From Leptolyngbya sp. BL0902 (GTDB lineage: Bacteria; Cyanobacteriota; Cyanobacteriia; Phormidesmidales; Phormidesmidaceae), in NCBI RefSeq assembly GCF_016403105.1, contig NZ_CP046155.1, positions 2,108,001-2,172,000 on the forward strand: a DNA stretch of 64,000 bases, in the 5' to 3' direction. Positions 2,209 to 8,648 of the stretch are shown piece after piece. The stretch's first letter is position 1. Each line of letters opens with the position of its first letter. The notes below the pieces were generated by a model, which made no database searches, was not told where the DNA came from, and saw only the letters and a list, made by a program, of their open reading frames with translations. Made by a program: the position numbers and the translations under genes.

Positions 2209-2235
2209 CCCACCATCCTGATTCCCTTGTTGCCT

Positions 2236-2631
2236 ATGCCGCAGTTCTCGAAAACATCGTAATTGGTGTTTTCGAGAATGAATCCATTGCTATCGTTTAA
2301 GTGCTTCGCGCCTGACATTTTGTGGTTCGGTAGTGCCTTTGCAATACTCACAGGTGTGTCCATACATACGATTAGCCCTCAAGTTCAGCTATCTAGTTGA
2401 AGATAGTGGTGAATTATTTCTATGGCGAGGCTTTCTGGGGGGTTTAGAAACAATTGTTCTAGCGCTTTTTGCCTGTCGTTTTCGCAAATCATCACAAATA
2501 GCTTTTAAATCATATTCAAAGGCTTTCGCGTAGTCTTCTCGATTTTTGTGGATTCTTCTAGAACTTCATTGTTCCATATATCTAGGCTCCCATTAACTCG
2601 TAAGGTATGCAAGTTGTGAGTAGTTTTTCTG
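2236..2631 (-). pseudogene. Decayed duplicate of the downstream zinc-finger/hypothetical gene pair
   Basis: This stretch is a diverged second copy of about 3022-3420, in the same orientation. On the minus strand it would encode the N-terminal part of the 3177-3452 protein (HTLRVNGSLD is still readable) followed by the start of the YgiT-type zinc finger (MYG.TCEYC). A one-base deletion near 2556 shifts the first frame, and an in-frame TAG plus indels near 2300 break the second. The last part of the zinc-finger gene is missing. Inside the copy, a short segment is inverted relative to the intact copy (see the repeat at 2245-2278). An open plus-strand frame here is only a shadow. Confidence 0.75.
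2245..2278. repeat. Perfect 12-bp inverted repeat with inverted loop
   Basis: Arms TTCTCGAAAACA (2245-2256) and TGTTTTCGAGAA (2267-2278) around the loop TCGTAATTGG. In the related intact copy (about 3031-3062) the arms are imperfect and the loop reads in the opposite orientation (CCAATTACGA). It is therefore a corrected quasipalindrome with a flipped centre. It lies 37 bp after the fmdB-like stop and could form a hairpin, but there is no T tract. Confidence 0.8.
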
Positions 2632-2684
2632 CGAGTAATTTTGATGCCGAGAATACATCCTCCAGTTGAAAATCAAACAAATTT

Positions 2685-2906
2685 CTATGCGACTGGCTGT
2701 TCGCCGTGACTTTCAATGTAATGGCGCAAAATTGAGTTAATTAAAGCTTTATATTCGCCACCTTGGGATTGAAACCAGTTCAACACATCGGGTTCAATTT
2801 CAACGAGCTGATGGGCTTGGGATGCAGGAATCCTCAGCGTGGCGTTTTCAAAAAATGCCTCGGTTAAGGGGGGAATGTCGGAGTAGTCGATGCCTTCTTC
2901 GTCCAT
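2685..2906 (-). CDS. BrnA-like antitoxin (helical DNA-binding protein)
   Basis: 73-residue protein ending a three-gene minus-strand run. It reads DIPPLTEAFFENATLRIP, then ...VLNWFQSQGGEYKALINSILRHYIE. The last part is the ribbon-helix-helix-like motif seen in the BrnA/CopG antitoxin family, where the pattern is 'D.V..WF..QG..Y...IN..LR.Y'. BrnA neutralises the RNase BrnT. No BrnT-like gene lies beside it; the upstream neighbour is a YgiT-type zinc finger ending 6 bp away. It may be an orphan antitoxin. Confidence 0.65.
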   Translation of the reverse strand: MDEEGIDYSDIPPLTEAFFENATLRIPASQAHQLVEIEPDVLNWFQSQGGEYKALINSILRHYIESHGEQPVA

Positions 2907-2912
2907 GAGTTT

Positions 2913-3170
2913 TTAGGCTGATTTTAGATGGGCGACTGGAATTCTTTCAGTTCTCTCAGGTGATACAGATCCAGTAGCAATGGCATGGACAGCATGAAGG
3001 ATATCGGCTGAATAGTATCGGTTGCCGCAGTTATCGCAAACACCAATTACGATATCTTCGAGGATGACAAATCCGTCTCTATGCTTGAATGCTTCGCGTT
3101 TGACGGTTCGAGGTTGAACGGTGCCTTCGCAATACTCACAGGTGTATCCATACATACGATTAGCCCTCAA
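2913..3170 (-). CDS. YgiT-type zinc finger protein (MqsA N-terminal domain-like)
   Basis: 85-residue protein with two CxxC pairs (TCEYC at residues 10-13 and VCDNC at about 43-47) binding one zinc, the fold of the MqsA antitoxin N-terminal domain. It lacks the C-terminal HTH half of MqsA, as is usual in the many short cyanobacterial YgiT proteins found beside small unknown genes. It starts 6 bp after the upstream gene stop, so it is co-transcribed. Probable role: the antitoxin or metal-binding partner of a TA-like pair. A broken duplicate lies at 2236-2631. Confidence 0.7.
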   Translation of the reverse strand: MRANRMYGYTCEYCEGTVQPRTVKREAFKHRDGFVILEDIVIGVCDNCGNRYYSADILHAVHAIATGSVSPERTERIPVAHLKSA

Positions 3171-3176
3171 GTTCGG

Positions 3177-3452
3177 TTATCTAGTTGAAGATAGTGACGT
3201 ATTATTTCTATGGCGAGGCTTTCTGAGGGGTTTAGAAACAATTTTTCTGCCGCTTTGTGCCTGTCGTTTCCGTAAGTCATCACAAATAGCATTTAAGTCA
3301 TACTTGAAGGATTTGGCATGGTCTTCTCGATTTTTGTAGATTCCTTCTAGAATTTCATTACTCCACATATCTAGACTCCCATTAACTCGTAAGGTGTGCA
3401 AGTTCTGAATATTTTCTGTTATTGGCGGCGATGTCTGACTCGGCCTTGGCAA
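3177..3452 (-). CDS. Small conserved hypothetical, partner of the zinc finger
   Basis: The recognisable part begins near residue 12: LHTLRVNGSLDMWSNEI, then IYKNREDHAKSFKYDL and DDLRKRQAQSGRKIVS. I remember this pattern (NREE.A..F.YDL.AI..DL..RQ..SGRKIV) from many small cyanobacterial proteins of unknown function beside TA-like genes. The first ~11 residues are translated from what looks like antitoxin DNA in another frame. Similarity to the degenerate copy ends near 3420, where the codon expected to be ATG reads ATA (Ile). The native start therefore seems to have been lost or moved. The start shown is only the longest ATG frame. Confidence 0.5.
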   Translation of the reverse strand: MPRPSQTSPPITENIQNLHTLRVNGSLDMWSNEILEGIYKNREDHAKSFKYDLNAICDDLRKRQAQSGRKIVSKPLRKPRHRNNTSLSSTR

Positions 3453-3603
3453 TCAGGGGATCGAGTTTTCCGGTGGCAACGTCGGATTCAAGTTGTCTAT
3501 TCCACATTTCGTCGAGATACTCTTGAAGCCAGGTTGCTAGGGCGCGAATTTCATCTTCTGGCAGTTGCTTGATTGCGGTCTCAACGTCTAAGCGCTTCGT
3601 CAT
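3382..3603 (-). CDS. Putative antitoxin, C-terminus replaced at a junction
   Basis: 73-residue helical protein: TAIKQLPEDEIRALATWLQEYLDEMWNRQLE, then DVATGKLDPLIAKAESD. This is the layout of small cyanobacterial antitoxin-like proteins (a 'LP..E.....W..E.....WD.Q...D...GKLD.L...A' pattern). After AESDIAANN the sequence changes and continues only 8 residues in DNA belonging to the next gene. The end therefore looks foreign, and the gene may have been interrupted when the zinc-finger unit arrived. No cognate toxin follows. Overlap with the downstream frame is about 70 bp. Confidence 0.5.
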   Translation of the reverse strand: MTKRLDVETAIKQLPEDEIRALATWLQEYLDEMWNRQLESDVATGKLDPLIAKAESDIAANNRKYSELAHLTS

Positions 3604-3713
3604 AGGATATTCATCCTTGAAGACTGCATCTATTCTATCGCTGAGGTAGGTGGTGCATTGCAGCCAAGGCGGTTGACTTAAGAGGTTCTGGCATTGGAGA
3701 TGTACCCGACAGG

Positions 3714-4115
3714 CTACTCAACAACCAGCACGGAAGCTAAGCCTAAGTGCTTAACGCAAGGAATAAAGTCTCTATCTGAAAATAGGAGGATATGATTTTC
3801 TTCAATACAAAAGGTGGCGATAATCATGTCAATTGTTTTGCGGACTGTGATTCCCTTTTTTCTGAGGAGACGAAAGTTATCTGCGCTCTTAATGGCCAGA
3901 CTTATGTTAATTAAGTTGAATATCGTGAGGGAGGTGAGCAACTGCTTGGCTGTTTCATAATCGGCATCTTGGCGAAATCCTTGCAATACTTCTGTAAGAA
4001 TGATGTCGCCAATGGCTAGGGGTTGAGTACTCAAGAGTTGGTCAAGGATCTTTACCTGAGGTGTGTTGCGACCATTAAAGTAATCAATCCACACGCTAGA
4101 ATCGACTAAAATCAT
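3714..4115 (-). CDS. vapC: VapC-type PIN-domain toxin
   Basis: 133-residue PIN-domain ribonuclease. It starts MILVDSSVWIDYFNG with the first catalytic Asp at residue 5. Glu follows in ILTEVLQGFR at about residue 42, then the Asp of KTIDMIIATFC at about 98 and the last acidic pair in FSDRDFIP. These are the four acidic positions that hold Mg2+ in PIN nucleases. VapC toxins cut tRNA or rRNA when freed from VapB. The start codon overlaps the antitoxin stop by 4 bp, the normal translational coupling in vapBC pairs. Confidence 0.85.
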   Translation of the reverse strand: MILVDSSVWIDYFNGRNTPQVKILDQLLSTQPLAIGDIILTEVLQGFRQDADYETAKQLLTSLTIFNLINISLAIKSADNFRLLRKKGITVRKTIDMIIATFCIEENHILLFSDRDFIPCVKHLGLASVLVVE

Positions 4116-4306
4116 GGGGATGTTCTCATCTCATCAAGGTCGCCACTCCAGGGTAGTTTGCCGCGAAAGGCTTTGATGGCTTCTTGTCGTTTAATTTGAA
4201 TGAGCATGGTTAGGGCTAGTTCAATGACTTGATCGGTTGCGGTTAGGCCAGTGGCTTGCAGGGCATCGGCCATGAGTGATTCGTCAACTTCTACATTGGT
4301 TTTCAT
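4112..4306 (-). CDS. vapB: VapB-type antitoxin
   Basis: 64-residue antitoxin partner of the PIN toxin. It begins MKTNVEVDESLMADALQATG, a ribbon-helix-helix start typical of VapB proteins that bind their own promoter. It ends with a toxin-binding tail (KAFRGKLPWSGDLDEMR) like that of the VapB2-type families. The frame is open to an ATG at 4345; I chose 4306 because the DNA-binding domain starts there. It overlaps vapC by 4 bp. Confidence 0.8.
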   Translation of the reverse strand: MKTNVEVDESLMADALQATGLTATDQVIELALTMLIQIKRQEAIKAFRGKLPWSGDLDEMRTSP

Positions 4307-4417
4307 GGTTTTAGCCGTGAAAGAGAATGTTTTATAGTGTTGCATAGCGCATTGCGAACAAGGCGATTAACCTAATATTTGCAAAGGATGTTGATGCTGT
4401 TAATGCAACCTATCGCG

Positions 4418-5566
4418 CTAGTTCTTACCTCGGTTGTTCAGCTTTCTTGCAAGTGAAGCCCAACTATTTGCAGAAACACCAAAGAAATCTTTTGCTTCCT
4501 TGAAACTTGAAAACTCTAATTTTAGAGATTCTTCAGTATATATTTTGATGTCATCGGAATTTTTATCGTCAAGTTGATCAGTTATACTTTCGCCGGAAGA
4601 GTCAGGAAACAAATTTTCGTTTTCATTATCCTCACGGTTTGAATTAACCTTCTCTGCTAAGTCCATCCAATCGTTAGCATCAATGTCAAGGCTGAGACAA
4701 GCATGTTCAAAAGTCACATAGTTCTCTTTAAGATGCTTGGCCAACTCTCGATTAAGATTGGCTTCTGCATTCTGGATTTCAGCGGCAGCAGCAACTTGAG
4801 CTTGATCAAGTTGAGCCTTAGAACCTTCATTAACCAGATTCAGAAAACTTTCCTCCTCCTCTTTTTCTTGCTTTTTCGATTCCTTCAAGAGCTTAGCCGA
4901 CTTTTCAGCATTTTCAAATCTCTCAGTCTCTTTTTGAATACGCTTGATTTGACTCAAAGAAAAATACACCCAAGCAGAAGCGAGAATAGGCGTCAACAAT
5001 AAAATTGCCAGAAGACTAGGAAGTACAGAATTGATCGCAATCCCAATAACTATTGGTGAAAGCCAGATCGAAACCCAAAATAATTGTTTCGTACTCTTAA
5101 GCGACTCATAATTCTTTCGTTGGCTTTTGGACTCTAAATAAATAGATTCATAGCGTTTTATGTCTGCCATTTTTACAAAGGTTAGACATTCTGCCAGCCT
5201 AACCTTTGCGATTTCATTATTTGATCGGGATGCTTCTATCATAATGTCAATTTTATTTAAGACAGAGTCATTAGCATTGCTAATAGAGGCGTTAAGGTTA
5301 GATCTTGTCCTAGAGACTCCTTTATAACGAAATACACGTCCATGATTTCTAACAGAAGCTCTTTGATCTCTTACCCAAAGCTTTAAACTGGTTTTCTCTT
5401 GCCTGTAATTTCGCTGAATTTCTTCATAGACCTGAATTGCTCTCAGGCAAATCACCCCTATTTCTTTTGCGTTATCAGCCGATATGATTATATTGTTTGT
5501 GGCAGCTAATTCCTCGTTTCGCTGAGAGAATTCAGAGGGATTGAGATATCTAAATGTGTACGTCAT
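4418..5566 (-). CDS. Hypothetical membrane protein with coiled coil and C-terminal repeats
   Basis: 382 residues, family not recognised. A mostly helical N-terminal half (1-160) is followed by a hydrophobic hairpin at about 162-205 (FWVSIWLSPIVIGIAI and LLAILLLTPILASAWVYF). Then comes a Lys/Glu-rich coiled coil (about 207-285: KRIQKETERFENAEKSAKLL). The C-terminus has two related motifs, ACLSLDIDANDWMDLAEKVN (about 290-310) and the final AKDFFGVSANSWASLARKLN, which look like small helical repeats, perhaps DNA- or ligand-binding. The gene is much richer in A+T than the flanking housekeeping genes, which suggests transfer. It stands alone next to the TA patch; a defence or phage-related role is possible but unsupported. 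Confidence 0.5.
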   Translation of the reverse strand: MTYTFRYLNPSEFSQRNEELAATNNIIISADNAKEIGVICLRAIQVYEEIQRNYRQEKTSLKLWVRDQRASVRNHGRVFRYKGVSRTRSNLNASISNANDSVLNKIDIMIEASRSNNEIAKVRLAECLTFVKMADIKRYESIYLESKSQRKNYESLKSTKQLFWVSIWLSPIVIGIAINSVLPSLLAILLLTPILASAWVYFSLSQIKRIQKETERFENAEKSAKLLKESKKQEKEEEESFLNLVNEGSKAQLDQAQVAAAAEIQNAEANLNRELAKHLKENYVTFEHACLSLDIDANDWMDLAEKVNSNREDNENENLFPDSSGESITDQLDDKNSDDIKIYTEESLKLEFSSFKEAKDFFGVSANSWASLARKLNNRGKN

Positions 5567-6002
5567 AGTTCTTCGTCTTGAGGTTTTCTACTATTTCCAC
5601 ATGGAGATGAATATTTGAATGAATGCCACTAATTTATTCTGTCAAAAAAGGACTTGCTGATAGATAAGCGGATCGGATTTTAAATCTTGAACGACTACGG
5701 TAGTGGAAAATTTTCGAGAGCTTTGTAATCCTCAAGAGTGTCTTCAGCATGGTAGCGACATCCACGGATTGCAAAAAACTGCCGTAGCTCTGACATTGAA
5801 ATAACAAAGGCTCCTTAGGGAGCCTTCGCCAAAAGCTAGTTTTGGTATTCAGAATCGTCCTTACCGGGTTTCCTCGACCTGTTCAGGTGACGGGATGTCA
5901 TGCTGTGGGCATGTCTACTGCATCCTATCCCAGACCTTAGCTCAGGACACTTGTTGCGTCAAGTGGCCGGAGTTGCTTGAATGCAAACGATGATCGGCCC
6001 AC
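5567..6002. other. Gap between divergently unrelated minus-strand genes
   Basis: No gene seen in these ~435 bp apart from the terminator at 5807-5826. The right part is AT-poor and the left part AT-rich, so the composition boundary of the accessory patch lies about here. Confidence 0.5.
5807..5826 (-). terminator. Rho-independent terminator for the GH57 gene
   Basis: Perfect 8-bp stem AAGGCTCC/GGAGCCTT with a 4-nt loop. Read on the minus strand it is followed by a T-rich run (TTGTTATTTC). It lies 177 bp beyond the stop of the glycoside hydrolase gene, which is read in that direction. Confidence 0.6.
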
Positions 6003-8648
6003 TCAAACCTGCTCCAGGGTCTTCAGCACAGCGGCCACATCCACCGAGAGATATTCGCCAAGGCGGAGGATTTCGCGGACTTGGGCGCGGCTTTCTAGGG
6101 AGAGGGATTTGCCGCTTTGGGCGGATTGTTTGAGCAGGGCAAACACCTGGCGGTGGAGGTGTTGGTAGAACAGTTCTTGGGGGCGTTCTAGGGACAGGCC
6201 CAGGCCCAGGCGGTCGCCGAGGTCGATTAGGCGGCCCAGCCATTCCACATCGGCGACGAGGGAATCGGTGGACTCTTGGCTAAGGATTTGCCAAACGGAG
6301 CGGCCAATCAGGCGTTCTAGCATGGGTTTGGCATCGGGCAGGGAGAGGCTGGCATGGAAATAGCTGGCCTCGGTGGCGATGGCATCCAATTCGTTGATGA
6401 AGTCTTCCCCTTGGCGGAGGGGGTTGGCGCTGGGGTCGCTGGTTTCCCGTTCTAGGGCGTGGAGCACCTCTAGGGTGCGCTGGCTGAGGGCGATATCGGC
6501 GGCGACTTGCAGTTCGCGGGGCACGGGCAGGCCATCGCGGTGGAAGGCACGCAGCACACCGTAGTTGTCGCGGTAGACCTGGGAATAGAGTTGGTCGAGG
6601 CGCAGCAGCGTGTCTTGGGAGAGCAGCTTCATCATCCGGTGGCGTTCTTCGGCAAACAGGTCTTGCAGGCTGTAGGCTTGGGTGCCGAAGGTGCGGTTCA
6701 TGGCCAGGATGGTTTGGGCGGCGCTGGCTTGGCTGAGGCAGTCGAACAGGTCGTCCTTGGCCTGGGTGTAGTCGAGGCGGGAGTGGAAACTGCGGATGCA
6801 GCAATGGAAATCCCAGCCGCCTAGGTGGACAACGGCAAAGGCGAGGCTGAGGGCTTCGCGGGTGATGGTGGAGGTGATATCCACCAGGCCAACGGCGAGG
6901 GAGATGGGGCCAAGGCGCTGGCGGCGATAGTCGTGCTGTTCGACGGTGTAGCAGTAGACAGACTGCTGGCGGCGATAGTCCGTAAACAGGGAACCCATGG
7001 CGTAGTGGGCGGCCACCTGCTCTAGGCTGATGCGGGAGGGTTTGACCAGGGCGCGATAGACCCCGGCTCCATCCTTGAACTCGTCCACATTGCTGGGAGC
7101 CTGGGCCAGCCGCATCACAAATTCCTGCTCCAGGGCGATCCCCGCCACTTCTCCGGCGAGTTCGAGGGCGCGGGCAGCGTAGCGCAAAATTTGGGTGCCT
7201 TCGGGCCGAGAGACTTCCTCAAAGAACCAGCCGCAACTGGTGTACATCAGCAGGGTGTGGCGCTGCATTTCCAGCAGGCGCAGGGTTTCCACCCGCTCGC
7301 TGGGGGAAAGCTCCCGCCTTTGGTGAGCGGCCAAAAAGGCGTTGAGGCTGTCGTCACTGCGGTCGCCCATCACCTGAATGTAGGCATCCCGCGCCGCCCA
7401 GGGATCGCGCAGGAGGTCAGCCCCCCGCTGTTCAAACACGATGGCCAGCTTGTCCCGCAGCCAATCCAGGGCATCCCGCAGCGGTCGCCGCCATTGTTGA
7501 TGCCACACATCGCCGCCGCCACAGCCGCAGTCCTCCTGCCAGCGGTCTACCCCGTGGGAGCAGCTCCAGGCAGTGACAGGCTTCAGTTCGGCTTCCCAGG
7601 TGGGGGGATGGGTGGCCAGATAGTGGGCGTAGTTGGTCACCGTCCAGCCCTGGCGGGGGAATTCTTCGGTGACGGCATAGGCCAGAGCTTTTTCGGCCCC
7701 GGCCTTGTGGTGGCCAAAGGTTTCGCCATCGGTGGCCACAGAAATGAGCTGGAAGGGACGGTGATCCCCATGGATCGCCTGCCCGATGCGTCCGGCAAAG
7801 TGGGAGGAAGCGGCCAGCACATCGTTAAAGCCCATGTCCCGCGAGATCGGGCCATCGTAGAAAAACACATCAATATAGCGGTTGGGATCAGCGCTACCGT
7901 CCTCGTTTTTGAGGAAACAGCGGTAGGGACGGCTGGGATCAATCTGGCCACCGCCCACCTCTTGCCAGTCTTCTCGCTCGCCGTGGTGGCTGGCCAAGGG
8001 CCGACAGCGCTGCACCTGGGAGGGAGCCAGGATGGTGAACTTGATCCCCTCCTGCACCAGCACTTCCAGGGTGGGGTAATCCACCGCCGTTTCCGCCAGC
8101 CAAATGCCTTCGGGATCGCGCCGGAACCGCCGCCGAAAATCCGCGATCCCCCATTTCACCTGGGTGACTTTGTCTCGTGGGTTGGCCAGGGGCAGAATGA
8201 TGTGGTTATAGACCTGGGCAATGGCGTTGCCGTGGCCCTGCAAGCGGGCGCAACTGTTGCGGTCGGCATCCAAAATGCGCTGGTAGGTCTCGATGTCGTG
8301 GCGCTCCATCCAGCTCAGCAGGGTGGCCCCCATGTTAAAGCTGATGTATTCAAAGGTGTTGACGATGCGTACCACCTCGCCCCGGTCGTTCAAAATCCGG
8401 GCGTAGGCGTTGGGCCGATAGCATTCGTGGTGGATGCGCTCGTTCCAGTTGTGGAAGGGGGCGGCGCTGGGCTGCTTCTCAATGGCATCCAGGTAGGGAT
8501 TTTCGCGGGGGGGCTGGTAGAAATGCCCATGCACACAGACAAATACTCCGGTGCTCACGGCGGGGATCAGCCCACTGCTAGGAATTTCGGCTTTAGACGC
8601 CGGATCAATTGCCGCGTCAATCACTGAATGCCGAGAGGAATCAGCCAT
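6003..8648 (-). CDS. Glycoside hydrolase family 57 protein with DUF3536
   Basis: 881-residue cytoplasmic GH57 enzyme; the family acts on alpha-glucans (amylase, branching enzyme, glucanotransferase). N-terminal domain: metal/substrate motif HGHFYQPPREN (residues 40-50), putative nucleophile Glu186 in GIWLAET, and the conserved ATDGETFGHH segment (305-314). The C-terminal half matches the DUF3536 extension that accompanies this GH57 subfamily in cyanobacteria. It has a Cys/Gly-rich spot (CGCGGGD). Exact substrate unknown; glycogen metabolism is the reasonable inference. The first ~30 residues are variable. It is monocistronic, with a terminator at 5807-5826. The long antisense open frames across it are GC-skew shadows. 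Confidence 0.85.
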   Translation of the reverse strand: MADSSRHSVIDAAIDPASKAEIPSSGLIPAVSTGVFVCVHGHFYQPPRENPYLDAIEKQPSAAPFHNWNERIHHECYRPNAYARILNDRGEVVRIVNTFEYISFNMGATLLSWMERHDIETYQRILDADRNSCARLQGHGNAIAQVYNHIILPLANPRDKVTQVKWGIADFRRRFRRDPEGIWLAETAVDYPTLEVLVQEGIKFTILAPSQVQRCRPLASHHGEREDWQEVGGGQIDPSRPYRCFLKNEDGSADPNRYIDVFFYDGPISRDMGFNDVLAASSHFAGRIGQAIHGDHRPFQLISVATDGETFGHHKAGAEKALAYAVTEEFPRQGWTVTNYAHYLATHPPTWEAELKPVTAWSCSHGVDRWQEDCGCGGGDVWHQQWRRPLRDALDWLRDKLAIVFEQRGADLLRDPWAARDAYIQVMGDRSDDSLNAFLAAHQRRELSPSERVETLRLLEMQRHTLLMYTSCGWFFEEVSRPEGTQILRYAARALELAGEVAGIALEQEFVMRLAQAPSNVDEFKDGAGVYRALVKPSRISLEQVAAHYAMGSLFTDYRRQQSVYCYTVEQHDYRRQRLGPISLAVGLVDITSTITREALSLAFAVVHLGGWDFHCCIRSFHSRLDYTQAKDDLFDCLSQASAAQTILAMNRTFGTQAYSLQDLFAEERHRMMKLLSQDTLLRLDQLYSQVYRDNYGVLRAFHRDGLPVPRELQVAADIALSQRTLEVLHALERETSDPSANPLRQGEDFINELDAIATEASYFHASLSLPDAKPMLERLIGRSVWQILSQESTDSLVADVEWLGRLIDLGDRLGLGLSLERPQELFYQHLHRQVFALLKQSAQSGKSLSLESRAQVREILRLGEYLSVDVAAVLKTLEQV

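Follow-up and report, generated by a model that had tools for sequence, protein, structure and literature searches.

An inverted hairpin loop in a decayed zinc-finger gene copy of Leptolyngbya, most economically read as the scar of a template switch

When a two-gene unit has been duplicated and one copy has decayed, how does the loop of a hairpin in the decayed copy come to face the opposite way from its counterpart in the intact copy, while the arms on either side of it have become perfect? The question is raised by a run of small genes in Leptolyngbya sp. BL0902. All positions below refer to the window, i.e. the whole 64,000-nucleotide stretch of contig NZ_CP046155.1 that was analysed (2,108,001 to 2,172,000).

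The decayed unit and its intact sister

The genome comprises 4.7 Mb, and the hairpin segment lies inside a contig of 4.3 Mb. The run of small genes occupies positions 2209-6002 between two convergent genes: an fmdB-like gene ending at 2208, the second of what we take to be an fmdA/fmdB-like pair, and an 881-residue gene on the minus strand (6003-8648), presumably a GH57 gene. The run starts with a decayed two-gene unit (2237-2632, minus strand), followed by a BrnA-like antitoxin gene (2685-2906, PF14384), the intact two-gene unit (2913-3365), an unnamed gene of 73 residues (3382-3603), a VapC/VapB pair (3714-4345) and, after that pair, an unnamed 382-residue gene with no Pfam match. Two parts of this toxin-antitoxin (TA)-like run, 2794-3679 and 4117-4306, are found again in the closest relative, genome G002, in a changed order. 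The fmdA/fmdB-like DNA is present in three further genomes (G025, G022 and G012), where its similarity to the window stops at 2209-2211 and no GH57 gene adjoins it; the flank of the GH57 contig of G002 is unrelated to the window DNA, and none of these four genomes yielded an empty site, that is, a locus without the small-gene run.

The intact zinc-finger gene (2913-3170, minus strand) encodes a YgiT-type protein that matches TIGR03831 (E 1.6e-8; 34.6 bits against a cut-off of 20.2) and carries two CxxC pairs, with cysteines at residues 11, 14, 45 and 48. The full MqsA-family model scores 18.7 bits, under its cut-off of 61.8 bits, and a structure search by sequence returned no PDB match for the zinc finger. 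Its partner gene (3177-3365, minus strand) belongs to an unnamed small family and lies upstream of the zinc-finger gene in G002 as well, where the two genes keep the same order; the partner matches no Pfam family, finds chance-level matches only in NCBIfam and none in PADLOC. The original prediction called the duplicated element a TA unit, a name that is only partly supported: one gene is a YgiT-type zinc finger, and the partner has no convincing Pfam or NCBIfam family; a recognised toxin partner, as expected of a type II toxin-antitoxin system, was not found. The partner family shows the motif MW.DEI.EEIYRIREEHAKAFNYDL and occurs in many cyanobacterial genomes (L007-L014, L018 and L019) without a zinc-finger match beside it. 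A second zinc-finger copy, sometimes partial, is present in the fetched DNA of 4 of 66 loci (L033, L045, L050 and L086), so that the family shows repeated decay of one copy next to an intact one.

The decayed unit, an unnamed small gene plus a YgiT-type zinc-finger gene, aligns in BLASTN with 3023-3420 on the plus strand at 83% identity (333/401), and frameshifts have broken both of its genes, in keeping with its earlier description as decayed. Within this alignment, a second BLASTN match between the two copies runs on the minus strand (28/32) and falls exactly on the hairpin. On the plus strand the hairpin consists of the left arm TTCTCGAAAACA (2245-2256), the 10-bp loop TCGTAATTGG (2257-2266) and the right arm TGTTTTCGAGAA (2267-2278), the two 12-bp arms being exact reverse complements of each other. 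The homologous segment of the intact gene is an imperfect inverted repeat that extends over 3031-3064, two bases further to the right than the 3031-3062 first proposed, with the left arm TTATCGCAAACA (3031-3042), the loop CCAATTACGA (3043-3052) and the right arm TATCTTCGAGGA (3053-3064). Arm pairing amounts to 12/12 in the decayed copy, 7/12 in the intact copy and 8/12 in G002, and the two loops, which differ at 8 of 10 positions when both are read forward, are exact reverse complements. Perfect arms, imperfect intact arms and opposite loops had all been noted before, and all three are borne out. When five arm bases are added to the loop, reverse-complement identity covers 15 bp (the loop plus 2267-2271 against 3038-3052). 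At least 15 bp, with the equivalent of 3038-3052 as their source, have been inverted in place, and the arms are now perfect.

On the coding strand the flip is in frame: it turns ILEDIVIGVCDN into ILENTNYDVFEN, changes 7 of the 12 residues and replaces the third cysteine of the zinc finger with phenylalanine in the decayed copy. The cysteine lost, Cys45, is a zinc ligand, and it is removed from a gene that is otherwise broken as well; no added function of the flip can be demonstrated. As plus-strand RNA the hairpin of the decayed copy has a predicted folding energy of -20.8 kcal/mol (z -6.35). A role as transcription terminator behind the fmdB-like gene was considered; the fold is strong, but the hairpin has no T run and is not listed by a terminator scan.

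One inverted segment against many point changes

Admitting a single reverse-complement segment raises the alignment score over the region from 17 to 35, and one switch with the intact copy as source lowers the mismatches in 45 aligned columns from 14 to 4, a reduction of 10, while the net length of the 45-base window is unchanged. A centre that aligned better forward than inverted had been named as the result that would speak against the inversion, and the comparison comes out the other way. With the G002 copy as source, one inversion leaves 6 mismatches. The size of this gain was compared with several nulls. Two sets of 12,000 simulations each gave largest reductions of 6 (10 runs), with the number of substitutions fixed at 14, and of 5, with divergence set to 17%. 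Along the alignment of the decayed and intact units, five sliding windows over the hairpin reach 10, and the next best of 117 reaches 4. Control alignments gave at most 3 (G002) and 6 and 6 (two alignments of the fmdA/B region). Pairs drawn from 69 family sequences, restricted to those that aligned over 180 columns or more and differed by no more than 22%, gave at most 7 (1,121 pairs, 24,074 windows). The pair with this top value, L047/L067, owes it to the other end of the gene, where the edge of L067 aligns poorly; the signal at L067 4001-4045, the 5' end of the homologue, could be due to misalignment at the edge or to a small event in its own right. Across the family no second event was seen at the site of the hairpin that would mark it as a hotspot.

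The ancestral orientation, which the original prediction proposed to read from related strains, can be taken from the homologues. The loop has its forward form in G002, G015 and G073, and in a tblastn survey of 66 named loci, 67 of 71 rows, from 64 of these loci, reach across the loop; every one of the 67 has the forward orientation and retains the cysteine, and the other four rows stop short of the loop. Because all 67 spanning homologous segments share the orientation of the intact gene, the flipped form is, on this comparison of sequences, the derived one. An inverted copy was found neither among 25 other genomes of the genus, which gave partial or forward matches only, nor among 62 other genomes of the order, and neither set contained an intermediate. 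The tree of the copies is weakly supported (0.52 and 0.70), and the duplication may be older or younger than the split from G002.

A template switch and the competing explanations

Loop inversion and arm perfection coincide, they do so far beyond the null expectation, and the inverted state is derived; for these reasons a template switch within an imperfect inverted repeat, as originally predicted, is the most economical reading. We put at roughly 0.85 the probability that a single short inter-strand template switch in the course of DNA synthesis left segment 2245-2278 behind as its scar. In such an event the growing strand would copy one arm, leave its template at the inverted repeat and, with the opposite strand as template, run back across the loop and the arm copied first; upon its return to the proper template the loop would be turned and the second arm would be the exact complement of the first.

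It is important to point out that the state before the switch was probably not that of today's intact copy, in view of the 4 residual mismatches in 45 columns, the 7/12 pairing of the arms and a hairpin that does not fold. The DNA of the intact form has a predicted folding energy of -1.7 kcal/mol with a different pairing, and the hairpin of the decayed copy is not formed; a candidate intermediate, with a forward loop between arms TTCTCGAAAACA / TGTCTTCGAGAA-like, reaches -6.3 kcal/mol (z -3.0), and the derived form -11.4 kcal/mol (z -6.0). This progression suggests that the left arm probably changed first. At the time of the switch the repeat would thus have been better already than that of the present intact copy, with the left arm changed beforehand at two positions, whether through point substitution, through a previous correction of the arm or through the joining of a truncated end to a remnant of a 23S rRNA-intervening sequence protein (IVP) gene that carried both bases. 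The idea that before and after states survive side by side in the window holds for the derived form and an intact sister, but probably not for an exact 'before' state.

The geometry of the switch was modelled from several starting points. With the intact copy as source, a copied tract of 14-25 bases leaves 4 mismatches; with a right arm given synonymous G002-like bases, a tract of 24-27 bases leaves 2; with a left arm that already reads TTCTCGAAAACA, a tract of 14-25 bases leaves 0, the derived arm being built in by construction. From either of two candidate intermediates with a changed left arm, one switch reproduces all 45 bases, although the perfect-fit intermediate is written with the derived left arm and its zero residual is partly built in. 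Whether there was a single event or several turns on this difference between 4 residual mismatches from the intact copy and 0 from the candidate intermediates only. Several geometries tie, with copy lengths of 14 to 27 bases, and the jump points and the strand are a matter of inference. Later changes may in addition have blurred the record of the switch in a copy that is 16% diverged outside the hairpin.

The best-surviving alternative, possible although we rate it below an even chance, elaborates the joining route into two steps. The 3' part of the zinc-finger gene would have been lost when the gene was joined to an IVP gene remnant within a CGA-AACTGCGG sequence common to both; this junction would have made a nearly perfect repeat, and its loop would then have been flipped by a template switch or by an inverted templated insert in end joining. 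It draws on a match of 37/45 between 2210-2254 (minus strand), which overlaps the left arm, and the 5' end of an intact G002 gene (L101, 965-1008) whose product belongs to Pfam PF05635, the four-helix-bundle 23S rRNA-intervening sequence protein. The match begins at 2209-2211, where the fmdB-like similarity to the three other genomes ends, and contains the two bases at which the left arm departs from the zinc-finger gene, and zinc-finger homology stops at 2237, 8 bases off the arm. The intermediate formed in this way would pair at 11/12, fold at -6.3 kcal/mol and yield the derived sequence with no mismatch. However, the match is short, has an indel and has lost its frame, and it was found after the fact; its E value is 5.2e-5 in one genome, with the next-best chance matches at 0.006, and becomes about 0.005 over the 96 genomes searched. 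Among 26 other IVP-like loci that were aligned, close likeness does not reach beyond L104 and L105, and the IVP-like gene of the window's own genome is only 32% identical. The assignment of 2210-2254 as an IVP gene remnant is accordingly tentative and somewhat doubtful. Rather unlikely, and a step further out, is the proposal that a near-perfect palindrome arose at the very point of the truncating fusion and immediately served as substrate for a loop-flipping switch; if true, a pseudogene in a tandem TA-like island would have decayed through breakage and micro-inversion as two connected steps.

Compared with a template switch, the remaining explanations fare poorly. Reciprocal recombination between the arms, a true small inversion of site-specific or homologous kind with the arms corrected later, would account for a loop inverted in place and a 45-base length that is unchanged; yet a crossover would swap the inner parts of the arms, whereas both arms hold the same mixture of bases, so that extra conversion steps are needed. 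Arms of this length, 12 bp on either side of a 10-bp loop, are also very short for recombination, and we consider this route improbable. An assembly or sequencing artefact at the hairpin might be suspected with a single assembly of the species, but it is more improbable still, given that the segment is placed inside a large contig and that the decayed copy differs from the intact one along its full length, as a mis-joined piece of the intact copy would not. A chance build-up of point changes and small indels, conceivable in a duplicate as diverged as this one, is refuted at the level of simulations and controls, with none of 24,000 simulations above a reduction of 6 and no control above 7 against the 10 observed.

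Relation to known template-switch mutations

As a bacterial protein-coding case that combines inversion of a 10-bp loop with perfection of the arms, the segment is a clean example of a class that is rare according to passages of two surveys (PMC8604942, PMC8794818). In one step such events alter a gene at many positions, and the result would be taken for a series of substitutions or for rapid evolution. Since the intact sister in a duplicated unit serves as reference for the earlier state, tandem gene islands are well suited to counting such events across genomes. A literature search, which was not by locus name, found no report of the locus.

Quasipalindrome mutation has long been studied in Escherichia coli with lacZ reporters and at a thyA hotspot, according to the sections of PMC7202029 that treat it. 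The likeness lies in an imperfect inverted repeat that is made perfect by a template switch in a bacterium; the classical event described there is intra-strand and leaves the loop unchanged, whereas the loop inversion seen here needs an inter-strand route.

Related events are known from the rRNA and microRNA hairpins of PMC8794818, parts of which describe template switches that invert the loop with or without correction of the stem, and a figure legend of which shows bacterial rRNA loop inversions. Stem change together with loop inversion is called extremely rare in that account, with six cases tabulated, and it is this combination that the present segment shares. The hairpins covered there belong to RNA genes under structural selection and mostly have loops of four, unlike the decaying protein gene considered here.

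A further parallel comes from genes of Saccharomyces cerevisiae (Abraham and Hazkani-Covo 2021, PMC8604942), in which a template switch at short inverted repeats makes the arms perfect and turns the spacer round; ten spacer inversions are described there, and one case, REG2, in which the spacer was inverted and the arms perfected together. Both settings concern coding DNA in which the arms have become alike and the spacer has been turned, and REG2 shows both effects, as here. The yeast cases fall within one species and have strain-level ancestors, whereas the present comparison is between paralogues, one of them a cyanobacterial pseudogene, with a 10-bp spacer and 8 positions changed. Overall, the kind of event is already published (PMC8604942, PMC8794818), and the segment is a clear example of a known mutation type rather than a new system; what is particular to it is the size of the loop, the paralogue kept as a reference and, possibly, the fusion junction.
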